Source of the DNA: Candidatus Poribacteria bacterium
Lineage (GTDB): Bacteria > Poribacteria > WGA-4E > GCA-2687025
Assembly: GCA_028818695.1 (NCBI GenBank)
Contig: JAPPNK010000020.1
Location: forward strand, 252,632 to 316,631
Direction of reading: 5' to 3'
DNA length: 64,000 bases
This document shows positions 12,154-34,539 of this stretch, piece by piece. The notes beneath the pieces are model-generated. The model saw nothing but the letters and a program-made list of their open reading frames with translations, did not search any database and was not told the origin of the DNA. Within the stretch, counting starts at the first letter, position 1. Every line of letters begins with the position of its first letter. A program made the position numbers and the translations under genes.

Positions 12154-13272
12154 ATGCGCAACAAACAGCCCGACAGCCTTTTTTCGACCGAGACAGAGCA
12201 TCTTTTCCGAGAGGCGCGAAGGCGCATGTCGCTCCAAGAGATCGCCGACTGGATCGGGCTGCATGTCAACACCGTCAAGCGATGGGAGGAGACGGGAACC
12301 GTTCCTTCTGCCTACGAGGGCGATTTTCTGCGGATGAGCGGCAGAGACGGAAACGCCAGCCCGACCGGCGACCATGTGCGCGACAAGGATCAGTTTTACA
12401 CAAAGCCTGAAACGGCGCGGCGTTGTTACGCTTGGCTGCGGGAGGCGGCGCAAACGCTTGAGATCGATCTCGGCGAGTACTGGCATATTGAGCCGTCCGC
12501 CGGGGGAGGCGTCTTTTACAACCTCATGCCGGCGGACAGGCGGATTGGCGTCGACATAGACCCGCGGGGCGTTTGCGCCGATGAGCTGATTCAAACCGAC
12601 TATTTGCGGTGGCGTCCTGAGATCTCGGGGAAACGGCATATCGTATTCGGCAATCCGCCGTTCGGGTTGCGGGGTCATCTGGCGCTGCAGTTCATCAACC
12701 ATTCTGTTGATTTTGCCGATTTGACCGCTTTTGTGCTGCCGCAGCTGTTTGAATCGGACGGCAAAGGCGTTCCCGCCAAGAGAGTCGACCCGCGGTATCG
12801 GCGCGTCCTGTCGAAGCGGCTGCCCGCCGATTCGTTTGTTACAAGCGGCGGGCGCGAGGTGAGCGTCAGCGCCATTTTTCAGGTCTGGAGCAAGGTGAAC
12901 CTAGACAGGCTGCCGCGCGAAGAAGCGCTGACCTGCTCGGCGTATGCGTCGGTCTATTCGCTCTCGGACGGCGGAACGCCCGCCTCAACGCGCAACAAGA
13001 AGATGCTGTATCGGTGCGACGTCTATCTCCCGTCCACCTGTTTCACCGGCATGCGCGCCTATGAGTCGTTTGAAGAGCTGCCGCACCGGCGGGGGTACGG
13101 CGTCGTCTTTCATCGAGAAAAAGAGACGCTGCGCGCGCTGCTGCTGTCGCATGACTGGGAAAAGACAGCGTTTTACTCTACGAACGGGGCGTTGAATCTG
13201 CGGACAAGCTTGATTCAGAAGGTGATGACGTCGGCCGGTTTTTATGACCGCGCTGATAAGATGCGCCGCTGA
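12154..13272 (+). CDS. HTH-fused adenine-specific DNA methyltransferase
   Basis: A 372-residue protein. An N-terminal helix-turn-helix (about 25-47, SLQEIADWIGLHVNTVKRWEE) is followed by DKDQFYTKPETARRCYAWL, an entry motif of orphan N6-adenine methyltransferases. The SAM-binding motif I is EPSAGGG (113-119), with an acidic GVDIDPR strand end. The catalytic motif IV is NPPF (167-170), the form used by N6-adenine enzymes. No endonuclease is adjacent. The HTH could give site choice or autoregulation. It begins two bases after the GH2 stop, so it is probably co-transcribed with genes that have nothing to do with DNA modification. The C-terminal half (about 200-372) is not recognised and may hold target recognition. 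Confidence 0.78.
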   Translation: MRNKQPDSLFSTETEHLFREARRRMSLQEIADWIGLHVNTVKRWEETGTVPSAYEGDFLRMSGRDGNASPTGDHVRDKDQFYTKPETARRCYAWLREAAQTLEIDLGEYWHIEPSAGGGVFYNLMPADRRIGVDIDPRGVCADELIQTDYLRWRPEISGKRHIVFGNPPFGLRGHLALQFINHSVDFADLTAFVLPQLFESDGKGVPAKRVDPRYRRVLSKRLPADSFVTSGGREVSVSAIFQVWSKVNLDRLPREEALTCSAYASVYSLSDGGTPASTRNKKMLYRCDVYLPSTCFTGMRAYESFEELPHRRGYGVVFHREKETLRALLLSHDWEKTAFYSTNGALNLRTSLIQKVMTSAGFYDRADKMRR

Positions 13273-13321
13273 CCGTGATTCTTTTTTAATGATCGCTCTC
13301 GCTTATAGGCGCCGCGAACGA

Positions 13322-13350
13322 TTGCGCGGAGCGGCGCGTTCGTATAAGAT
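13322..13350 (+). promoter_or_regulatory. Promoter of PhyH gene 3
   Basis: TTGCGC (13322-13327), 17 bases, TAAGAT (13345-13350); an overlapping TATAAG at 13343 gives a 15-base spacer. The start codon lies 33 bases downstream with GAGGA before it. Confidence 0.45.
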
Positions 13351-13382
13351 GAACGCAAATGAGCGCATATGAGGAACCAGCC

Positions 13383-24575: not shown

Positions 24576-27500
24576 ATGCGCGCCTTCATAGACCGTCTTC
24601 TCAAGTTTGAGCCGTTCCTTGCGTTGCTGCGCCGCTTAGACGCTTCGGACGCCCCGCTCGTTGATGCGACGGGGCTTCATGGATCGGCGGGCGCGATGCT
24701 GATCGCCGCCCTGCGTCAAACGCTCCCGTCCGACGCTTCCATTCTCTGCGCGCTGCCGACGCAAGCGGACGCCCGAAAATGGCAGAACGACCTCAAAGCG
24801 TTCGGCGTCTCCAACGCGGCATGCTTCCCTCTTGTGCCGGACATCTACGGCGAGCTCGGCTCCGACTCGCTCTGGGCTTTGCGCGCCGACCGTATGGACG
24901 CGGCGGAGGCGCTCATCGGCGGGGGCGTCGTTGCGGCGTCGGCGTATGCGCTTGCGCAGCGGCTTCCGCCGATAGACGAGGCGCTCAAGGCGTCGCCCAT
25001 TCTTGAGGTTGGCGAAACCTTCGGCTTTCAAAATCTCGCGGCTTCGCTGGCGCGCCTCGGTTACCGCCGGCGCGATACGGTGGAGGCGCCGGGCGAGTTT
25101 GCCGTGCGCGGCGGCATCATGGACATTTTCCCCCCAACTTTCGACCGCCCCGCCCGCATCGAATTCTGGGGCGATGAAATCGAGTCGATACGCGCATTTG
25201 ACGAGGGAACGCAGCGGTCGATGCATGCGCTGGAGTCGCTGCGTTTGGCGCCGGCGGGCGAAACGCTGTTGACAGACGAAGCGCGGCAAGAATGGACAAA
25301 GCGCGCCAACGCCAGAGCCGCCGAATACCCCTCCGTTCGGCTGCGCGGCGAAATTGACGAACTCACCGAACAGATTTATGAATCGGACGCCCCAACAGGA
25401 ATGGAGCGTTACTATCCGCTGCTGTTCCCAGACGGAAAAACGCTTTTAGACATGGCTCCCGACAACTCAATCCTCGTCATGTGGGAGCCGCGCTGGATGT
25501 TCCGCGAGTTGAACCGTTTTCATGAAAAAGTGGACGGACTAGCCGAGCAGGCGCGCGGCGAGGACAGGCTCTGGATGACAGCGGAGGAAACGTACCTCAA
25601 CGAAGAGCGTCTGCGCGGCGCAATGTCCCGCTTCAAAACGATTCGATCCTCGTTGACGCCGGTTGACGGGAGCGGCGAGTCGAAGCGCATCGATTTTAAG
25701 ACGCAGCCGATCGTCTTAGGCAAGGGCGGACTTCAGCCTTTCTTTGAGGCGCTGAACGCATGGCTGGCGGACGGCTGGCAAACGCTTGTGGGCTGCGCGG
25801 ACGAGGCGTCCAGCATGCAGCTGCGCGATCTGTTGAAGGAGCGCGGTTTGCTCAAAGAAGCGGTCGCGGTGGAATCGATGCCGCTCTCCTCCTCTTTCAT
25901 GAGCGAAGAGATGCAGTCTGCCGTTGTGTCGCATGAAGGCGCTTTTGGACGGGCGCGCAGCCTGCCGGCGCGGTCGCGGCGCAGACCAGGCGTTCCCCTG
26001 TTGAGCCTTATGGAACTGGGCGAGGGAGACTATGTCGCCCATATCGCGCATGGCATCGGCAGGTACAGAGGAATACGGCGCATGAGTTCAGACGGGCAGG
26101 CGCAAGATTTTCTCCTGTTAGAATATGCCGGCGGCGACATGCTTTATGTCCCAGTCCACAACATCGACCTTGTACAAAGATATGTCGGGCCGCAGGGAGA
26201 AAAAGGTCCCCCGCTAGACCGCATCGGCGGGACCGCTTGGAAACGGGCGTCTGCGCGGGCGAAGCGTTCTGCCGAGCGGCTGGCGGAGGAGCTGCTGTCT
26301 CTTTATGCGCAGCGGGAGGCGATGCCGGGGCGCGCCTACTCGTCCGACACGCTCTGGCAAAAAGAGTTTGAAGCCGCCTTTCCGTATGAAGAAACGCCCG
26401 ACCAGGCCGCCGCGATTGAGGATGTCAAAGAGGATATGGAGCGGGCGCGTCCGATGGACAGGCTCATCTGCGGCGACGTCGGCTACGGCAAAACGGAGGT
26501 CGCCATGCGCGCCGCCTTCAAAGCGGTCATGGACGGAGCCCAAGCCGCCTTTTTAGCCCCGACGACCGTTCTGGCGCAGCAGCATTACCACACGATCCAG
26601 GAGCGATTTAAAGAATTTCCGATACAGGCGCGTCTGCTAAGCCGCTTGATTCCGCCCAAAGAAAACAGGCAGACGATCGCCCATCTCGCCAACGGGACGG
26701 TCGATCTGGTCGTTGGGACGCACCGCCTGCTTTCGGCGGATGTGCAGTTTCGGCAGCTCGGCTTGCTGGTGATCGACGAGGAGCATCGGTTCGGAGTGAA
26801 GCAGAAGGAGCGGTTGAAGCAGCTCAAGAAGGTGGTCGACACGTTGACGCTCACCGCGACGCCGATTCCGCGGACTCTCCATATGGCGGTGTCGGGCGCG
26901 CGCGATATGAGCGTCATAGCGACGCCGCCCGAAAACCGCCTGCCGATTGAAACGTACGTGATCGAATACCGGCCGGAGCTGGTGCGCGCCGCCATTCTGC
27001 GCGAGCTCGGTCGGGAGGGTCAGGCGTTCTTTGTCCATAACCGCGTTCGGGGGATCGAGACGATCGCCGAAAATCTGCGTCAGCTTGTCCCGGAGGCGCG
27101 CTTCTCGGTCGCGCATGGACAGATGCGGGAGCGCGCTTTGGAGGACGCGATGCTCCGCTTTATTCAGCATGAAAGCGATGTTCTCGTATGCACAACGATC
27201 ATTGAGTCCGGTTTGGACATCCCAAACGTCAACACGATCATTGTAAACCGCGCGGACGCCCTCGGCCTGGCGCAACTTTATCAGCTCCGCGGCCGCGTCG
27301 GGCGGTCCGACCGCCGGGCGTACGGCTTTTTGATGTATCCTAACGACCGAACGCTCGGCGAAACCTCCCTAAAACGGCTCCGCGTCATTGAAGAGTTTAC
27401 AGAACTGGGCGCAGGGTTTAAAATAGCTCTGCGCGATATGGAAATACGCGGCGCCGGCAATCTGCTCGGACCGGAGCAGCATGGACACATGGCGTCGGTC

Positions 27501-28034
27501 GGGTATGATCTGTATTGCCGTCTGTTGAAAAATGCTGTAGCCGAGCTGAAAGGCGAGGAGATTGAAGAGGAGTTGGAAACGAAGATGCGCTTTCCGATGG
27601 CGGCGTATCTGCCGGACGAGTACATCGCGGACAGCGGATCCAAGTTTGCGCTCTATCGACGCATTGCGCGCGTCCGAACGATGGAGGATCGCGACATGAT
27701 CATCGACGAAATGCGCGACCGCTACGGCCCCCTGCCGGACGAGGCGCGCCATCTGCTGGAGATCGCGTGTTTAAAGGGAAGAGCGTCGGCTCTCGGCGCG
27801 ACGTCGCTGTCGGCGGTCGGCGGCGAGGCGCGAATCTCGTTTGACGAAAAGCTGGCGAAGGTGGAGGTTGAGCGCGTGTTGGCTCTTGTCAATTCTGACG
27901 CAAAGGCGCGGCTGATACCGCCCTCGCAGCTGTCGGCGCCCTTGCCTTCAAGCCGATCATATGACATATTTTCACAGTTGCATACTATTTTTGACATGCT
28001 AGAGGTTCCTAAAGAGGAGGCGTACCGCTCATGA
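24576..28034 (+). CDS. mfd: Transcription-repair coupling factor Mfd
   Basis: A 1152-residue SF2 translocase that removes stalled RNA polymerase and recruits UvrA. Domain order: a degenerate UvrB-like N-terminal region (about 1-350), an RNA-polymerase interaction CarD-like domain (about 485-550, EGDYVAHIAHGIGRYRG), and a helicase core. The core has Walker A GDVGYGKTEVA (about 633), DEEH (about 732) and TATPIPRTLHMA. A RecG-like C-terminal part follows (RGRVGRSDRRAYGFL), then a TRCF domain at the end. The length is that of the family. The ATG is only five bases after a CATAAT box, so the message may start at or near the codon; no clear -35 is seen. The last codons overlap the next gene (ATGA), which ties mfd to the envelope genes downstream. 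Confidence 0.95.
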   Translation: MRAFIDRLLKFEPFLALLRRLDASDAPLVDATGLHGSAGAMLIAALRQTLPSDASILCALPTQADARKWQNDLKAFGVSNAACFPLVPDIYGELGSDSLWALRADRMDAAEALIGGGVVAASAYALAQRLPPIDEALKASPILEVGETFGFQNLAASLARLGYRRRDTVEAPGEFAVRGGIMDIFPPTFDRPARIEFWGDEIESIRAFDEGTQRSMHALESLRLAPAGETLLTDEARQEWTKRANARAAEYPSVRLRGEIDELTEQIYESDAPTGMERYYPLLFPDGKTLLDMAPDNSILVMWEPRWMFRELNRFHEKVDGLAEQARGEDRLWMTAEETYLNEERLRGAMSRFKTIRSSLTPVDGSGESKRIDFKTQPIVLGKGGLQPFFEALNAWLADGWQTLVGCADEASSMQLRDLLKERGLLKEAVAVESMPLSSSFMSEEMQSAVVSHEGAFGRARSLPARSRRRPGVPLLSLMELGEGDYVAHIAHGIGRYRGIRRMSSDGQAQDFLLLEYAGGDMLYVPVHNIDLVQRYVGPQGEKGPPLDRIGGTAWKRASARAKRSAERLAEELLSLYAQREAMPGRAYSSDTLWQKEFEAAFPYEETPDQAAAIEDVKEDMERARPMDRLICGDVGYGKTEVAMRAAFKAVMDGAQAAFLAPTTVLAQQHYHTIQERFKEFPIQARLLSRLIPPKENRQTIAHLANGTVDLVVGTHRLLSADVQFRQLGLLVIDEEHRFGVKQKERLKQLKKVVDTLTLTATPIPRTLHMAVSGARDMSVIATPPENRLPIETYVIEYRPELVRAAILRELGREGQAFFVHNRVRGIETIAENLRQLVPEARFSVAHGQMRERALEDAMLRFIQHESDVLVCTTIIESGLDIPNVNTIIVNRADALGLAQLYQLRGRVGRSDRRAYGFLMYPNDRTLGETSLKRLRVIEEFTELGAGFKIALRDMEIRGAGNLLGPEQHGHMASVGYDLYCRLLKNAVAELKGEEIEEELETKMRFPMAAYLPDEYIADSGSKFALYRRIARVRTMEDRDMIIDEMRDRYGPLPDEARHLLEIACLKGRASALGATSLSAVGGEARISFDEKLAKVEVERVLALVNSDAKARLIPPSQLSAPLPSSRSYDIFSQLHTIFDMLEVPKEEAYRS

Positions 28035-30232
28035 ACGGATTATGGAAACGATTTCATTGGGTTAAATTCATTGCCGCAGCGGCTCTCTCATCAGCGCTGA
28101 TCGCTTGCGGCGCGTCGCATGCATCGACGCAGGAAGAACAGATCGATTCAGAAGAGGCGGCGGTCGAGCAATCTGAAGCAGAAGAGGCGGCGACAGCGGA
28201 GGAAGCGAAACCGGAAGATGTCCTGCTGGCGACATTCGCCTGGAAAGGCGAAGAGCATACGATCACCTTGGCGGAGCTGCTGCAGGAGCTGGAGGAGCTG
28301 CCGTCCTACCACAAGCGCCGGTATGAAGGGCGGGAAGGGCGGCAAACCTACCTCGCCCTGATGGCCGAGAGCCGCATCGCCCTTGAGCGCGCGATGGAGC
28401 TGGGGCTTGAAGACGATCCTGTCGTCGAAGCGAAGACGGAAGAGCTGCGCCGCAAGATACTGCTGGATGCGGTTGAAAAAGTGGAGGTGGAGGACAAGGC
28501 GGTTGTCACGGACGAGGCGGCGGAAGATTATTACAACCGCAACCTTGAAAAGTACCATCTGCCGGAGCGCGTCCGTCTTCTCAGTTTGGCGGTGAAGGAC
28601 GAGGAGCAGGCGGGCGGCTATTTGAAAGAGATCAAGGACGGAACGCGCACGTTCGACGAGATCGTGAAGCAGCTGTCCGAAGACGGGCTAAACGAGGGGC
28701 CGGGCGGACGCAACAACGGCGACACAGGACTCTTTGCGCAGGATTCGTTTGTGGGGGCGGAGCCGTTCACCGAGGCCGCTTTCGCCCTTGAAGTCGGGCA
28801 GATGACCGAAGAGGTGTTTTCGTTGGAGTATAACGGCGAGACGTACTTCATGCTGTTTCGGCTTGAGGAACGCGCAGAGCCGTATCAGCAGACGCTCGAA
28901 GAGGTGATCGACCGCGCCCGCCGCTCCGCCGAAATAGAGTTGACCGAAGCGCGCGAAGCCGCCTGGGCAAGCGAGCTTGAACAGATTGGGCAGCTGACGC
29001 TTTACCCGGACAGGTTGCCGGAGCCGCCCATGAGAGATGTGGTTGAAGAGACGCCCGAAAACGGCGAAGAATCGACCGACTCAGAGTCGTCAAAAACTGA
29101 CTCGGAGTCGTCAAAAGGGAAAGAGCTGGTTCCCGCCGACGAAGTCGTGTTCGCCGACCTTGAGATGGACGCCGCGACCGTGCTGGCTGAATGGACCTGG
29201 GACGGAGTTCAGCGCGCCTACACGTGGGGACAACTGCAGGCGCATTTTGACGAATTGCGCCCCTACCGCAAGAGCCGTTACGCCGGCGTGGAGGGATGGA
29301 CAAATCTTGTGAAAGAGCGCGCTTTGGAGGAGCTGAAGGTTTTGGAAGCCGAGGCGCTCAATCTCGGCAAAACGGATGAAGACGCCGCTCAGCTGGCGGA
29401 ATATCGGCGCCAGCTCATGATTGAGCAGCTGTACGAAAAAGAGATCAAAGGGATGGCGGACATCTCCGAGGAGCGGCTCATGGCGTACTATAAGGAGCAT
29501 GCTTCCGAGTATGTGGAGCCTGAAAAGGCGCGCTTGACCTGCATCACGCTGCTGGACGACAAAGAGGCAGCCGACAAGCTGTTCGCCGAGCTCGTCAACG
29601 GGCGGGACATCGCCGAAGCGGCGCAAACCCTCTCGGAAGCGGAGAAAAACCAAGGACCAGGCGGACGCAACAACGGCGACACGGGCTTCATCACCCGAAA
29701 CACCTTCGCGCAGGCGGAGGCGTTCACCGAAGCTGTTTTCTCCACAGAGGCGGGTCAGATCGTTTCCGAGGTGGTTGTTCAACCGCTGGGCGAAGACGCG
29801 ACCTACTACATGATCTTCAGAGTTGAAGAAAAAATGCCGCAGCGTCAACAAACCTTTGAGGAAGTTCGTTCCACTATAGAGAAGGCGGTTGGAAAGATCG
29901 CCCGCGAGGAACGGCTAAACGAATGGCTGACGGCGTTGAAGGAGCGGACGAATTTGACGATTTATCCTGAGCGTCTGCCCGAAGATCCGCCGCCCGAAGA
30001 AGAGAACGTCGAAGAAACTCCCGAAGGCGGCGAAGAATCGACAGACGCCGAAAGCGATCCCTCAAACATTGGAAATGTTGAGGGAGATAACAACTCGGTC
30101 GAGAACGAGATCAAAATAAATGTCGAGGGCGAAAACAAGATCAAAATCAAAAAAAATGTTGAGGGCGAAAACGACTCCATCGAGATCGACGGAGAAGAGG
30201 CGGAAACGAATGACGAAGAATCACCGGAGTAG
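28031..30232 (+). CDS. Lipoprotein with two SurA/PpiC-type prolyl isomerase units
   Basis: A 733-residue periplasmic chaperone-isomerase. The lipobox is ALIAC near residue 26, so it is a lipoprotein. The body is an internal duplication. Residues about 65-345 and 385-655 each have a SurA-N-like helical part (ELPSYHKRRYEG, ELRPYRKSRYAG) followed by a parvulin domain (about 178-290 and 495-610), with GPGGRNNGDTG repeated in both. Catalytic residues are not all conserved, so chaperone activity may matter more than isomerase activity. The C-terminus (about 670-733) is low-complexity, with NVEGxN repeats and acidic ends. Mfd overlaps it by four bases; SurA_N and LptD follow without gaps, so it is probably made for outer-membrane assembly. 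Confidence 0.85.
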   Translation: MNGLWKRFHWVKFIAAAALSSALIACGASHASTQEEQIDSEEAAVEQSEAEEAATAEEAKPEDVLLATFAWKGEEHTITLAELLQELEELPSYHKRRYEGREGRQTYLALMAESRIALERAMELGLEDDPVVEAKTEELRRKILLDAVEKVEVEDKAVVTDEAAEDYYNRNLEKYHLPERVRLLSLAVKDEEQAGGYLKEIKDGTRTFDEIVKQLSEDGLNEGPGGRNNGDTGLFAQDSFVGAEPFTEAAFALEVGQMTEEVFSLEYNGETYFMLFRLEERAEPYQQTLEEVIDRARRSAEIELTEAREAAWASELEQIGQLTLYPDRLPEPPMRDVVEETPENGEESTDSESSKTDSESSKGKELVPADEVVFADLEMDAATVLAEWTWDGVQRAYTWGQLQAHFDELRPYRKSRYAGVEGWTNLVKERALEELKVLEAEALNLGKTDEDAAQLAEYRRQLMIEQLYEKEIKGMADISEERLMAYYKEHASEYVEPEKARLTCITLLDDKEAADKLFAELVNGRDIAEAAQTLSEAEKNQGPGGRNNGDTGFITRNTFAQAEAFTEAVFSTEAGQIVSEVVVQPLGEDATYYMIFRVEEKMPQRQQTFEEVRSTIEKAVGKIAREERLNEWLTALKERTNLTIYPERLPEDPPPEEENVEETPEGGEESTDAESDPSNIGNVEGDNNSVENEIKINVEGENKIKIKKNVEGENDSIEIDGEEAETNDEESPE

Positions 30233-30235
30233 GCG

Positions 30236-30910
30236 ATGAGAGCAAGTTGTCAAAAGCGGATTGGTTGGATCGCGGCGGTACTGCTGTGCGCGGCGATGGC
30301 ATTTCCGACGCATTCGAACGCGAAGATTGTGGACCGCATCGTCGCGTTTGTAAACGCGGAAGCGTTGACGCAGGGCGATCTTCAGGGGTTGATTCGAGAC
30401 CATGCGCAGCTGCTGCAGGCGTTTCAACGGCTGAGTCCGTCCGAAGCGCAGCGCGCGGCAGAAGAGCAGTCGGAGGCGCATCTAGAGGAGCTGATCGCGA
30501 CCAGCCTGCTCGTTCAGGAGGCGCGCCGTCAGGAGCAGGAGAATCCGCAGTATCAGATCGCTCAGACGACTCTGGACGATTTCATCCGCGCCTTTCGAAT
30601 GGAGCGGCAGTTGACCGACGACGCGGACTTCGCTCTGGCGCTGCGCCAGCGGAATCAGACCCAAGAGGCGTTTCGCCGAGAGATGATGCGCACTCTGCGG
30701 ATACGGGAGCTGTTGACGCGCGAGCTGATACCGCGCTTGAATGTGACGGACAAGGACGCAGCCGCGTATTATGAGGCAAACAAAGAAGCGTTTGCCTCCA
30801 AAAACGAAGCCCGCCGCGCCCTGCGCGAAAAGCGTTTTCTAGAGGAAAGGGAAACCTACATCGCCCGTCTGCGTCAAAAAGCGTTCGTGAAGGTGTTGAT
30901 CCAGTTCTGA
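30236..30910 (+). CDS. SurA N-domain-like periplasmic chaperone (no isomerase domain)
   Basis: A 224-residue protein with a signal peptide (cleavage near SNAKIV). The SurA-N pattern KIVDRIVAFVNAEALTQGDL is followed by helices with ELIATSLLVQEA and later EAFRREMMRTLRIRELL. This is the substrate-binding core of SurA; the parvulin domains that follow it in Proteobacteria are missing. Here they may be supplied by the preceding lipoprotein or by modules within the following LptD. GGAG sits just before the ATG, and its stop TGA overlaps the ATG of LptD (TGATG). Confidence 0.75.
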   Translation: MRASCQKRIGWIAAVLLCAAMAFPTHSNAKIVDRIVAFVNAEALTQGDLQGLIRDHAQLLQAFQRLSPSEAQRAAEEQSEAHLEELIATSLLVQEARRQEQENPQYQIAQTTLDDFIRAFRMERQLTDDADFALALRQRNQTQEAFRREMMRTLRIRELLTRELIPRLNVTDKDAAAYYEANKEAFASKNEARRALREKRFLEERETYIARLRQKAFVKVLIQF

Positions 30911-33900
30911 TGCGAATTGCCGCGTTCATCATCTGCCTGCCGATTCTATTGGGCGCGCGCTATGTCTGGGCGGAGGAGACGCCGGACGTTCCCCCATCCG
31001 AAGCCGACGGCAACGGTTCAACGGCGGAGCAAACGCAGGACAGCGAAGAGGCGGGCAAAGAACAGGACAGCGAAGAGGAGGACATCGGCGCCGCTTCCGA
31101 GGTGTCCATTCTAGACCGCGATATGCGCCTCAAATCGGACGAGGTGTATATTGACGCGGGCGACACGGTCGTCTGGACCGAAGAAGGCGCCCATGTGCGC
31201 GGCGACGCTTATATCCGATTCTCCGATATGACGCTGCAGGCGGACGATGTGTGGATGCATATGGAAAAAAAGGCTCTGCGCGCCAAAGGCAACGTCCGCC
31301 TGACGGTCGAGAACGAAATCACCTACGCCGACGAGCTGGTCTTCAACTTTGAAACAAAACAGGGGGTCGCATACGGCGGCGCGGCGTACGGAGAGCCTTG
31401 GTACTATCAGGGGGTCAAGATCGTCCGCGTCTCGGAGCGCGAGTCGCTCATCAACAACGGCATCTTATCGACCAGCTCTCTCAAATATCCGCATACCTAC
31501 TTCAAGGCGTCGCAGATCTTCGTTCATTTAGAGCAGGAGATCATCGCCAAAAACGTGGTGTTCATGATTGGAGGCGTTCCACTGCTCTGGATACCTGTTT
31601 ACCGGCGCAGCTTGCGCGAAAAAAAGCCGGCGCCGTTGATTGTGAAGGTCGGCAGCGACAGCTATCTGGGGCATTGGGCGACCTTTATTTTGCCGTTGCG
31701 GCGCACTCAGCGGATGCGCAGCATTCTTCAGTTCGATTGGTCGACCTCAAGAGGAACGGGGCAGGGCTTTGAGACGACCTACAATGTGCGCGATGTGAAT
31801 CTGCGCTGGATCGTTTTTAAAAAACCGGAGGACGCGACAGCCGCTGAGCTGTCCGATTTGCGCAAAAAAGCGGCGCAGGTGCATGCCCGACTAAGAGGAG
31901 ATTTTGACAATCGGCTCATCCTTCGGCTTTTCTTGCCTTACGAAATAGGGGCAGAGGACATAGACCGCGCCCGATCCAGAGCGCAGGAGGTTCAAGACGC
32001 GCTGGCGCAGGGAGAGGATTTTGGCGATCTGGCGGGGCGCTACTCCTCCGAATCGACTTCCGCCCAGAACAAAGGTTTTCTGGGCTATATGGCGGCGGGA
32101 GACGGTCTCCTTCGCCCCGAGCTGGAAGCGGCGGCCCTCTCTCTGGAATACGGCGAAACGAGCGAACAGATCGAAGCGGAAGACGGCCACTACTTTTTTC
32201 GAGTGAACGATATTCTGGAAACGCATGGGCGCATCGAAAAGCAGACGCAGATGATTCATGTCGCCGTTGAGGCGAGCGAGGCGTCTCGAGAGACGACGCG
32301 CAACCTCGCCGAGTCGCTCATGGACCGCGCCAATTCGGGCGCCGATTTCCGGGAGTTAATCAACGAATACGAGGCGGACCCTCCCGAATCGATGCTCGGC
32401 GAAACGGAAGAGCCGGCAGCGCATGGCGGCGCCGCGAAGGAGTCGAACCTGCCATTGAACCAGTATGAATGGGGGCAGCAGCAAGAGCTGCGCAAAATGC
32501 AGGTCGGCAGCGTGTCGACCCCGATTCAGTTTCGGGAGGGGCTGCTCATTGTGAAGCTGCTCGGAAGGTCCGAGACGCCCGATTTCAGCGCTCTTGCCAA
32601 GCAGCTGTCGGACGACGAAGAGACGCGCGACAACGGAGGCTACCTGGGATGGGTCGGCCCGGGCGATCTGCCGCGCAGGGTGTACAGCGCGTCGCGCGTT
32701 CTTGAACAGGGAGAGGTGAGCGCCAGCGTCGTCGAGACGGAGGACTCGTTTGTGATGACGAAGTCGGAGGGGCGGCGCAACATCACAGGCCAAGCGACGG
32801 TGTCCCGCGAAGACCTGCGCTCCTACAGCCGAGAGAACGCCTATAAAACGGGCGATCAGTATTCGGCGTATCTGCGCCATCAGCAGGACATTCCCCTTGG
32901 ATGGGAGCGCGAGGGCAAGCGGTTGGCGTTCTGGTCGCGGCTCGATTACAACAGCCGCATTCCGCGCACCGATTCGGAAGGAAATGCGTATATTCAAGAG
33001 AGCTCGGAGATGCGCGCGTTTGGAACGATCGTTTTCGACTCCGCTGAGGATCTTTACAATCAACGAGAACTCTCGCTCCGGTCGCGTCTAACGGTCGACA
33101 AGAGCTTTGACTTTGCGGACGGGCTTGGCTCTACGCATAAGCAGCCTGAACTGGATATGTCTCTGGACGGGCAGCTGTCGCGCATTTACGGCGTCAGGCG
33201 GATCAATCGGACGCTGCGCGACCTTTCCGTCAAATGGGACAAGCTAAACGTTCCGATCTTGAAGGTTCCGACGTTTGACGATATGGACTTTTCTTTAAAC
33301 GCCGGCGCGACGAACCTGAAACGCGATCGGTACCGTTTTTCGGACGCGATCTACGCCATACGTCAAGAGCGCGGTTTGGAGGGAGAGCAAACGCAGGATG
33401 TGTCGCTCTGGACGGCGGACGCAAGCTTGAACATCGACAAAGACACGACCGTCACCGTCACAAGTACCCGAGCGGTCACCTTCAGAATGTACGGCGCTGG
33501 GCGCTTGGTGTACAATGAAGAGGATCAGAAAGGAAACCAGCATATTTTGCGCGGCGTTGTGAGCGGGAATGTGGCAGCGAACAACACGCTTGCGCGCGTG
33601 TATGACATCAGCTTTATCCCTGGCGCAAGCCGTCTCCGCCATGAGATCGCGGCCTCCGCCGATTTCGACTGGTCCCCGTCAGCCAACGACGAGGCGGAAG
33701 ACCCTGATAATCCCGACCCGGACGATATTTTGCTGTATCCGTTTGGCTCCAGCGTGTATGTGTATGAGCGGAAAGAGATCGGTATGAGCTTCGGCTCCAC
33801 CATTCGGGTGAAGACAAAGCTGAATAAGGAGTTTCAGGCGCTGCGTTTCGATGCGAGCGTGAGCCGCGATTTCACGAACCGCCCTTATCTCGGCAATCGG

Positions 33901-34539
33901 AAGTGGGACTTTCTGCGCATGGAACTGAGCTCGCAGCCTCTGTCAAGCGGAAAGCTGACGACAACCGTCACCAGCAACTGGGATCCGAACACGTACAGCC
34001 CCGATTCTGCCATTCAGCGCGATCCGTTCACGATGGTTTCTTTTTCGTCAAGCGTCCGTTACCGCTCCGGCGACTTCACGAAAGGGTGGAGCGTCAACGT
34101 AGGCACGCAGTATCAGCGCCTCGCGTCCCGTTCTCCCCGCAGCGCGTTCACCAGCTTTTCGTGGCGGCCGAGCAAGCTGTTCAACATTGATGTGAGCGCG
34201 CGGTGGGAATATGACCGCGATCGGCTTGAGAATCCTCCCGCATGGCGCTCCAACTCGATTGCGAAAGCGATCGGAATCGCGCATATCCACCCGTATTCGC
34301 AGGAGATACGTCTGCGCCGAAATCTGCGCGACTGGGATATGCGCATCACATGGCGCCGATTCGGAAGCCTCGGCAATGTTCGCAAAGAGTTCACCTATCA
34401 GATCAACCTGATTGCCGATCCGACCCTGACGCTGGGCGTCGGGCATGACGCCGTGACGAACGACTGGGGATTCCGCAGCCTGCCGCTTGGCGTGCCGCCG
34501 ACCTTCACAGGCGGAAGCCTCGGTCGGTCGCGTTTCTAA
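30910..34539 (+). CDS. LptD-like outer-membrane LPS translocon with embedded parvulin-like modules
   Basis: A 1209-residue protein. After a signal peptide and an acidic linker (about 22-65), an LptA/OstA-like jelly-roll domain is clear (about 66-160; SDEVYIDAGDTVVW, ALRAKGNVRLTVENE). Then come the LptD signature FMIGGVPLLWIPVYRRSL and the first barrel strands (to about 300). About 301-625 is foreign to LptD. It has parvulin-type patterns: FGDLAGRYSSESTSAQNKGFLGYM, a degenerate second module (about 445-550) and a third with DFSALAKQLSDDEETRDNGGYLGW and EQGEVSASVVETEDSF. Strands resume near 645 (YSAYLRHQQDIPLGW) and run to the end. The C-terminus is Phe, as expected for BamA-assembled barrels. 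In E. coli SurA assists LptD assembly; here isomerase-like domains sit inside the barrel protein. Confidence 0.85.
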   Translation: MRIAAFIICLPILLGARYVWAEETPDVPPSEADGNGSTAEQTQDSEEAGKEQDSEEEDIGAASEVSILDRDMRLKSDEVYIDAGDTVVWTEEGAHVRGDAYIRFSDMTLQADDVWMHMEKKALRAKGNVRLTVENEITYADELVFNFETKQGVAYGGAAYGEPWYYQGVKIVRVSERESLINNGILSTSSLKYPHTYFKASQIFVHLEQEIIAKNVVFMIGGVPLLWIPVYRRSLREKKPAPLIVKVGSDSYLGHWATFILPLRRTQRMRSILQFDWSTSRGTGQGFETTYNVRDVNLRWIVFKKPEDATAAELSDLRKKAAQVHARLRGDFDNRLILRLFLPYEIGAEDIDRARSRAQEVQDALAQGEDFGDLAGRYSSESTSAQNKGFLGYMAAGDGLLRPELEAAALSLEYGETSEQIEAEDGHYFFRVNDILETHGRIEKQTQMIHVAVEASEASRETTRNLAESLMDRANSGADFRELINEYEADPPESMLGETEEPAAHGGAAKESNLPLNQYEWGQQQELRKMQVGSVSTPIQFREGLLIVKLLGRSETPDFSALAKQLSDDEETRDNGGYLGWVGPGDLPRRVYSASRVLEQGEVSASVVETEDSFVMTKSEGRRNITGQATVSREDLRSYSRENAYKTGDQYSAYLRHQQDIPLGWEREGKRLAFWSRLDYNSRIPRTDSEGNAYIQESSEMRAFGTIVFDSAEDLYNQRELSLRSRLTVDKSFDFADGLGSTHKQPELDMSLDGQLSRIYGVRRINRTLRDLSVKWDKLNVPILKVPTFDDMDFSLNAGATNLKRDRYRFSDAIYAIRQERGLEGEQTQDVSLWTADASLNIDKDTTVTVTSTRAVTFRMYGAGRLVYNEEDQKGNQHILRGVVSGNVAANNTLARVYDISFIPGASRLRHEIAASADFDWSPSANDEAEDPDNPDPDDILLYPFGSSVYVYERKEIGMSFGSTIRVKTKLNKEFQALRFDASVSRDFTNRPYLGNRKWDFLRMELSSQPLSSGKLTTTVTSNWDPNTYSPDSAIQRDPFTMVSFSSSVRYRSGDFTKGWSVNVGTQYQRLASRSPRSAFTSFSWRPSKLFNIDVSARWEYDRDRLENPPAWRSNSIAKAIGIAHIHPYSQEIRLRRNLRDWDMRITWRRFGSLGNVRKEFTYQINLIADPTLTLGVGHDAVTNDWGFRSLPLGVPPTFTGGSLGRSRF

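Follow-up and report, generated by a model that had tools for sequence, protein, structure and literature searches.

A predicted LptD of Candidatus Poribacteria with three parvulin domains, two nested in the third, inside its barrel

The LptD encoded in a 64,000-nucleotide stretch of a Candidatus Poribacteria genome (hereafter, the window) almost certainly carries three parvulin domains, two of them nested in the third, between two strands of its β-barrel. LptD is essential in many diderms, is notoriously slow to assemble and is an antibiotic target. The architecture, which extends across the phylum, is apparently undescribed so far: we found no open-access paper on an LptD joined with a parvulin domain, or on such an LptD in Poribacteria, in a literature search that covered open-access papers.

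The reading frame encodes a predicted LPS translocon

The lptD ORF is uninterrupted, is present in one copy in its own genome and comprises the following parts outside the parvulin cassette.

30910..34539, + strand: lptD ORF, 1209 aa, with internal parvulin cassette (ORF list, Pfam, AF2, structure matches)
31144..31611, + strand: LptD periplasmic jelly-roll, about residues 79-234 (AF2 strands, E. coli LptD match)
31612..31821, + strand: LptD barrel strands 1-4, about residues 235-304, strand 4 running into the first strand of module A (AF2, alignment)
32785..34410, + strand: LptD barrel strands 5-26, about residues 626-1167 (AF2, structure matches)

An AF2 model of the protein, computed with a 52-row family alignment (mean pLDDT 80, pTM 0.57; protein residue = model residue + 60), contained a jelly-roll and 26 barrel strands. 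Its best structural matches were E. coli LptD structures (VIA-align Z 20.8, rmsd 6.8 over 619 residues), and Foldseek matched it to 4q35 (E 3.0e-20). The classical LptD Pfam family, PF04453, stayed below the cut-off throughout Poribacteria, and likewise in a Bacteroides control. PF19838 (LptD_2) gave no above-cut-off match in the Pfam search of the window protein and exceeded the cut-off in the relatives L108 (E 4.7e-9) and L114 (E 4.9e-6). In addition, the lipid A and Lpt pathways co-occur with poribacterial LptD: LpxC was found in 79 of 81 poribacterial genomes, the window's genome encodes LptF/G, and LptE was found in the window's genome (E 2.1e-11) and in 32 further genomes, which also disfavors the cassette as a substitute for LptE. 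By its modeled fold, the ORF is a genuine LptD of Candidatus Poribacteria, as the original prediction had proposed, and the barrel strands resume past the parvulin region as it had described. In one related genome, lptD is divided into two overlapping ORFs (L055:9851-13511; 865 + 450 aa), probably by a frameshift or sequencing error.

Two parvulins are enclosed by a third

The cassette occupies about residues 295-627 (about 330 residues; 320-510 across Poribacteria) and is composed of two complete modules and one module in two parts.

31792..31902, + strand: parvulin module A, first part (b1-a1), residues 295-331 (AF2, structure match, profile comparison)
31909..32223, + strand: parvulin module 1, residues 334-438, nearest to the SurA PPIase domains among the families compared (Pfam, AF2, structure match, profile comparison)
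32230..32571, + strand: parvulin module 2, residues 441-554 (Pfam, AF2, structure match, profile comparison)
32572..32790, + strand: parvulin module A, second part (a2 to b4), residues 555-627, its last strand running into barrel strand 5 (Pfam, AF2, structure match, profile comparison)

The Pfam Rotamase family (PF00639) matched three stretches of the protein (E 3.4e-31 for the protein as a whole). In the AF2 model, barrel strand 4 is a single long strand (282-304) that extends into the first parvulin strand, and a module A helix (311-328) lies ahead of module 1. Modules 1 and 2 are complete parvulins in tandem, enclosed by the two parts of module A, and the last strand of module A and barrel strand 5 form one strand (613-637). 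When the model was compared with known structures by VIA-align, module A superposed on PrsA (6vj4) with Z 15.7 at 1.3 Å over 94 residues in the model range 234-565, and on SurA PPIase-1 (2pv1) with Z 15.6 at 2.0 Å; modules 1 and 2 together matched the two-domain PPIase 8hm4 (Z 16.5, 205 residues, model 267-496). The PDB parvulins aligned to the discontinuous module A cover only about 94-108 residues within model 234-565, and a profile of the rejoined halves aligned with the whole of SurA P2 (E 4.8e-14, 91 columns). Since both the PDB parvulins and the rejoined-half profile align across the split parts, module A is a parvulin that hosts the two others. Taken together, it is near certain that this LptD has three parvulin domains, two nested in the third. 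The original prediction of about three parvulin-like modules inside LptD, flanked by barrel strands, was thus correct; the insert that it had placed at residues 301-625 is present, with its limits refined and its third module found to be discontinuous. A nested parvulin whose sheet continues barrel strands is an unusual junction of a soluble domain and a β-barrel.

In most Poribacteria (L038, L043, L049 and other f8 loci), an acidic low-complexity linker of about 50-150 residues lies in module A between the second and third helices; it is absent in the window.

The cassette is placed on the periplasmic side

LptD has a periplasmic jelly-roll and a 26-strand barrel, so that the turns after even-numbered strands are periplasmic. 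An alignment of poribacterial LptD with that of E. coli and with 13 further non-poribacterial LptDs located the cassette at the short E. coli LptD turn ENEFRYLSQ-AGAGLMELDYL, between strands 4 and 5. As the turn that links these two strands is periplasmic, the cassette is expected on that side of the membrane. The AF2 strand order agrees with the alignment to E. coli and other LptDs, indicating that the insert maps to a periplasmic turn, a point that had been put forward for testing. An extracellular cassette, inserted after strand 5 in an outside loop, was rejected, since alignment and model both place the insert after strand 4. How cassette and barrel are oriented to each other is uncertain in the AF2 model (pTM 0.57).

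The architecture is found throughout Poribacteria

Scanning 84,980 species genomes with a profile, we obtained 71 loci, every one of them poribacterial; in the search within the phylum, a match was found in 81 of 84 genomes, and 20 of 21 genera were represented. All 65 full-length LptD ORFs were matched by each of five HMMs, which represent the N-terminal region, the three modules (1, 2 and A) and the C-terminal barrel; these HMMs were built largely from the same sequences, but a cassette-less copy would still have failed them. Sequence identity is 43-60% for the modules, versus 52-66% for the jelly-roll and barrel segments. Because the architecture occurs in 65/65 full-length loci, single-contig closed chromosomes included, an assembly error is excluded. 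An assembly or annotation artefact joining two genes, which had been named in advance as an outcome that would overturn the prediction, is refuted by these independent loci, and its residual probability is vanishingly small.

Outside the phylum, we searched 204 genomes (of 288 in total), in which most phyla were represented by one or two genomes. The non-poribacterial LptD matches listed end near profile position 310, where the cassette starts, and come from ORFs mostly of 660-760 aa. In the 14 best non-poribacterial LptDs, the parvulin HMMs M1, M2, SP1 and SP2 had no match; the N-terminal HMM matched all 14. Among the matches listed from this 204-genome sample there was no LptD-parvulin fusion, and rare cases are possible. 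A scan of genome contigs with the single window protein gave no matches, and neither did a scan of viral contigs. One LptD from outside the phylum (L125:2576-5839, 1087 aa) is extended at its N terminus by about 340 residues ahead of the jelly-roll and has no parvulin.

lptD follows a surA gene that is short in the window's family

Three genes upstream of lptD belong to a syntenic block.

24576..28034, + strand: mfd, conserved start of the syntenic block (Pfam, neighbourhood comparison)
28031..30232, + strand: gene of the cluster for a 733-aa protein with two parvulin domains of PpiC/PrsA-like type (Pfam, neighbourhood comparison)
30236..30910, + strand: surA, core only, 224 aa, without PPIase domain, its last base shared with the lptD start (SurA_N_3 PF13624, E 1.4e-9)

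Across Poribacteria, mfd is followed by the PpiC-like parvulin gene(s), surA and lptD, in this conserved order. The comparison with the E. coli surA-lptD neighbourhood, drawn in the original prediction, therefore applies across the phylum, with surA directly upstream of lptD. In the window's family, the SurA adjoining lptD is 224-288 aa long and consists of the N domain and the C-terminal part only, versus about 430-530 aa with two PPIase domains in the other poribacterial families. The PPIase-less form beside lptD is confined to the window's family, where it also occurs in G006, G007, G008 and G010. Judged by domain content, the SurA of this family has lost both PPIase domains and keeps its core. 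Apart from this SurA, the window's genome encodes a single SurA_N_3 protein, which is PpiD-like and 656 aa long; in some relatives of the family, another SurA_N protein is encoded elsewhere (441 aa in G010, 476 aa in G009). A transfer of the PPIase domains from SurA to LptD in the window's family was rejected, since the cassette occurs in all families, most of which have a full SurA too.

The two-parvulin gene at 28031-30232 is found in the window's family, and most relatives have two tandem PpiC-like genes of 320-370 aa in its place. It probably arose by gene fusion.

The modules are related to the SurA PPIase domains

In profile-profile comparisons, module 1 scored 146/128 with P2/P1 of the phylum's own SurA versus 50 with the PpiC-like neighbours, and module 2 scored 110/107 versus 33. 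By these scores, both modules are much closer to the SurA PPIase domains than to the neighbouring PpiC-like parvulins, and a derivation of the cassette from the PpiC-like genes is disfavored. A profile search also matched the SurA chain 1m5y across modules 1 and 2 (query 322-569, E 4.5e-15). The SurA N domain and C-terminal helix were not found around the LptD parvulins, the Pfam search giving no SurA_N match in LptD. The outgroup lineages f9 (L047/L140) and f10 (L046/L108) have the cassette and a full SurA together, so the insertion predates the divergence of the phylum's lineages.

In the LptDs of f9 and f10, strands 10 and 11 are joined by another periplasmic turn, which holds a fourth parvulin. 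In L140, positions 23-102 of the SurA-P2 HMM match residues 248-333 and positions 6-39 then match residues 345-378. This order, with the second half first and the first strand and helix after it, looks like a circular permutation, and the fourth parvulin of both lineages is apparently permuted. In L108, the fourth module (13008-13376) has a canonical RHIF first strand. The AF2 model of this outgroup LptD contained the nested cassette again; the fold of the fourth module rests on sequence only, because its pLDDT is about 30-60.

No module keeps the dual-histidine motif

We examined the positions of the dual-histidine motif in the 52 aligned sequences. The consensus residues are Q (41/52) and H (42/52) in module 1, D (42/52) and Y (43/52) in module 2, and E (47/52) and R (41/52) in module A; the window's own residues are R/Y, H/L and W/V, respectively. 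Both histidines occur together in no module, either in the consensus or in the window sequence, and the replacements are module-specific and conserved. Module 1 of most relatives retains the second histidine and an acidic residue. The idea of an isomerase cassette is thus weakened: as none of the three modules keeps the motif, loss of activity is likely. It is not proven, because the motif is reported to be mainly structural in Pin1 (PMC6557836). As the motif is absent from every module, the cassette more probably serves in binding or docking than as an isomerase.

Discussion

In E. coli, LptD folding is strictly SurA-dependent, SurA contacts OMP clients via its core and P1, and it can do without its PPIase activity (PMC9820271). 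The core of SurA is functional in vivo by itself and is the docking site of PPIase-1 (PMC11366764). We give about even chances to the reading that the poribacterial cassette is a non-catalytic, SurA-P1-like peptide-binding or docking module, placed in cis on its client LptD and aiding its assembly. During LptD biogenesis, the cassette would hold or shield later barrel segments or, alternatively, serve as the docking point of the LptD chain for the SurA core and BAM; once LptD is assembled, the cassette would remain in the periplasm next to the jelly-roll. The rest of the chaperone would be supplied by the companion SurA core encoded directly upstream. Self-chaperoning by the cassette, as originally suggested, is plausible; an action on Lpt partners, the alternative raised there, would be a further candidate role. 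The cassette is not simply a SurA replacement, since most Poribacteria also keep a full SurA with PPIase domains. For the window's family, a further step is conceivable but doubtful: SurA would be split, its 224-aa core and its PPIase-like modules residing on separate proteins, with the modules on LptD, the client most dependent on SurA. The core would dock on these modules in the way that core and PPIase-1 associate within E. coli SurA. If true, one essential protein would have a dedicated chaperone that is targeted to it covalently.

The fixed position of the cassette in a periplasmic turn beside the jelly-roll, and the conservation of its fold despite the lost catalytic motif, would also fit a permanent docking platform of the finished translocon, one that binds LptE, BAM, the LptA bridge or another partner in the envelope and is no folding aid. 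LptE and LptF/G are present as candidate partners, and the outgroups place a fourth module at a second periplasmic turn. The kinship with the SurA PPIase domains and the surA synteny, however, suggest biogenesis, and we hold the platform to be possible, if tentative. An insertion of little functional weight, fixed in the phylum's ancestor and tolerated since, is easy to accommodate structurally: periplasmic turns accept insertions, and the parvulin fold fits into a hairpin because its N and C termini are close together. The modules are also somewhat less conserved than the jelly-roll. Against this, the cassette is present in every full-length copy in 20 genera, and a demanding discontinuous fold is kept with fixed non-catalytic residues in each module, making mere tolerance unlikely. 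Prolyl isomerase activity of one or more modules, directed at LptD or at neighbouring periplasmic proteins, is very unlikely. The well-preserved parvulin fold, the second histidine and acidic residue of module 1 in most relatives, and the mainly structural role of the dual-histidine motif in Pin1 (PMC6557836) would permit it, but the first histidine has given way to Q/R in module 1, D in module 2 and E in module A, and the second to Y in module 2 and R in module A; in the window, module 1 has neither histidine and module 2 only the first.

The reason for the SurA dependence of LptD and the role of the SurA PPIase domains are open questions in the field (PMC11366764). SurA-like PPIase modules inside LptD, with the catalytic motif gone, constitute a natural experiment, which argues that binding matters, not isomerization. 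By its location, the cassette marks the strand 4-5 turn as a site needing help, and its presence suggests that hard-to-fold LptD brings part of its own folding or docking machinery.

The poribacterial protein shares the jelly-roll, the 26-strand barrel and the strand order with the LptD of E. coli and other diderms, as well as the LptE, LptF, LptG and LpxC encoded in the genome and the surA gene adjoining lptD. It differs from E. coli LptD in that the periplasmic turn between strands 4 and 5 holds the three-parvulin cassette. Mature window LptD, unlike that of E. coli, has no cysteines, and therefore no E. coli-type disulphide checkpoint. Like SurA, which consists of an N domain, PPIase-1, PPIase-2 and a C helix, the cassette has two tandem parvulin domains, modules 1 and 2; in contrast to SurA, it is covalently part of the client, and the first histidine of the motif is lost in the consensus of both modules, with Q and D instead. 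Module A resembles PrsA/Pin1-type parvulins in superposing on PrsA (6vj4) at 1.3 Å over 94 residues, but it is discontinuous, encloses two further parvulins and has outer strands that are extensions of barrel strands.
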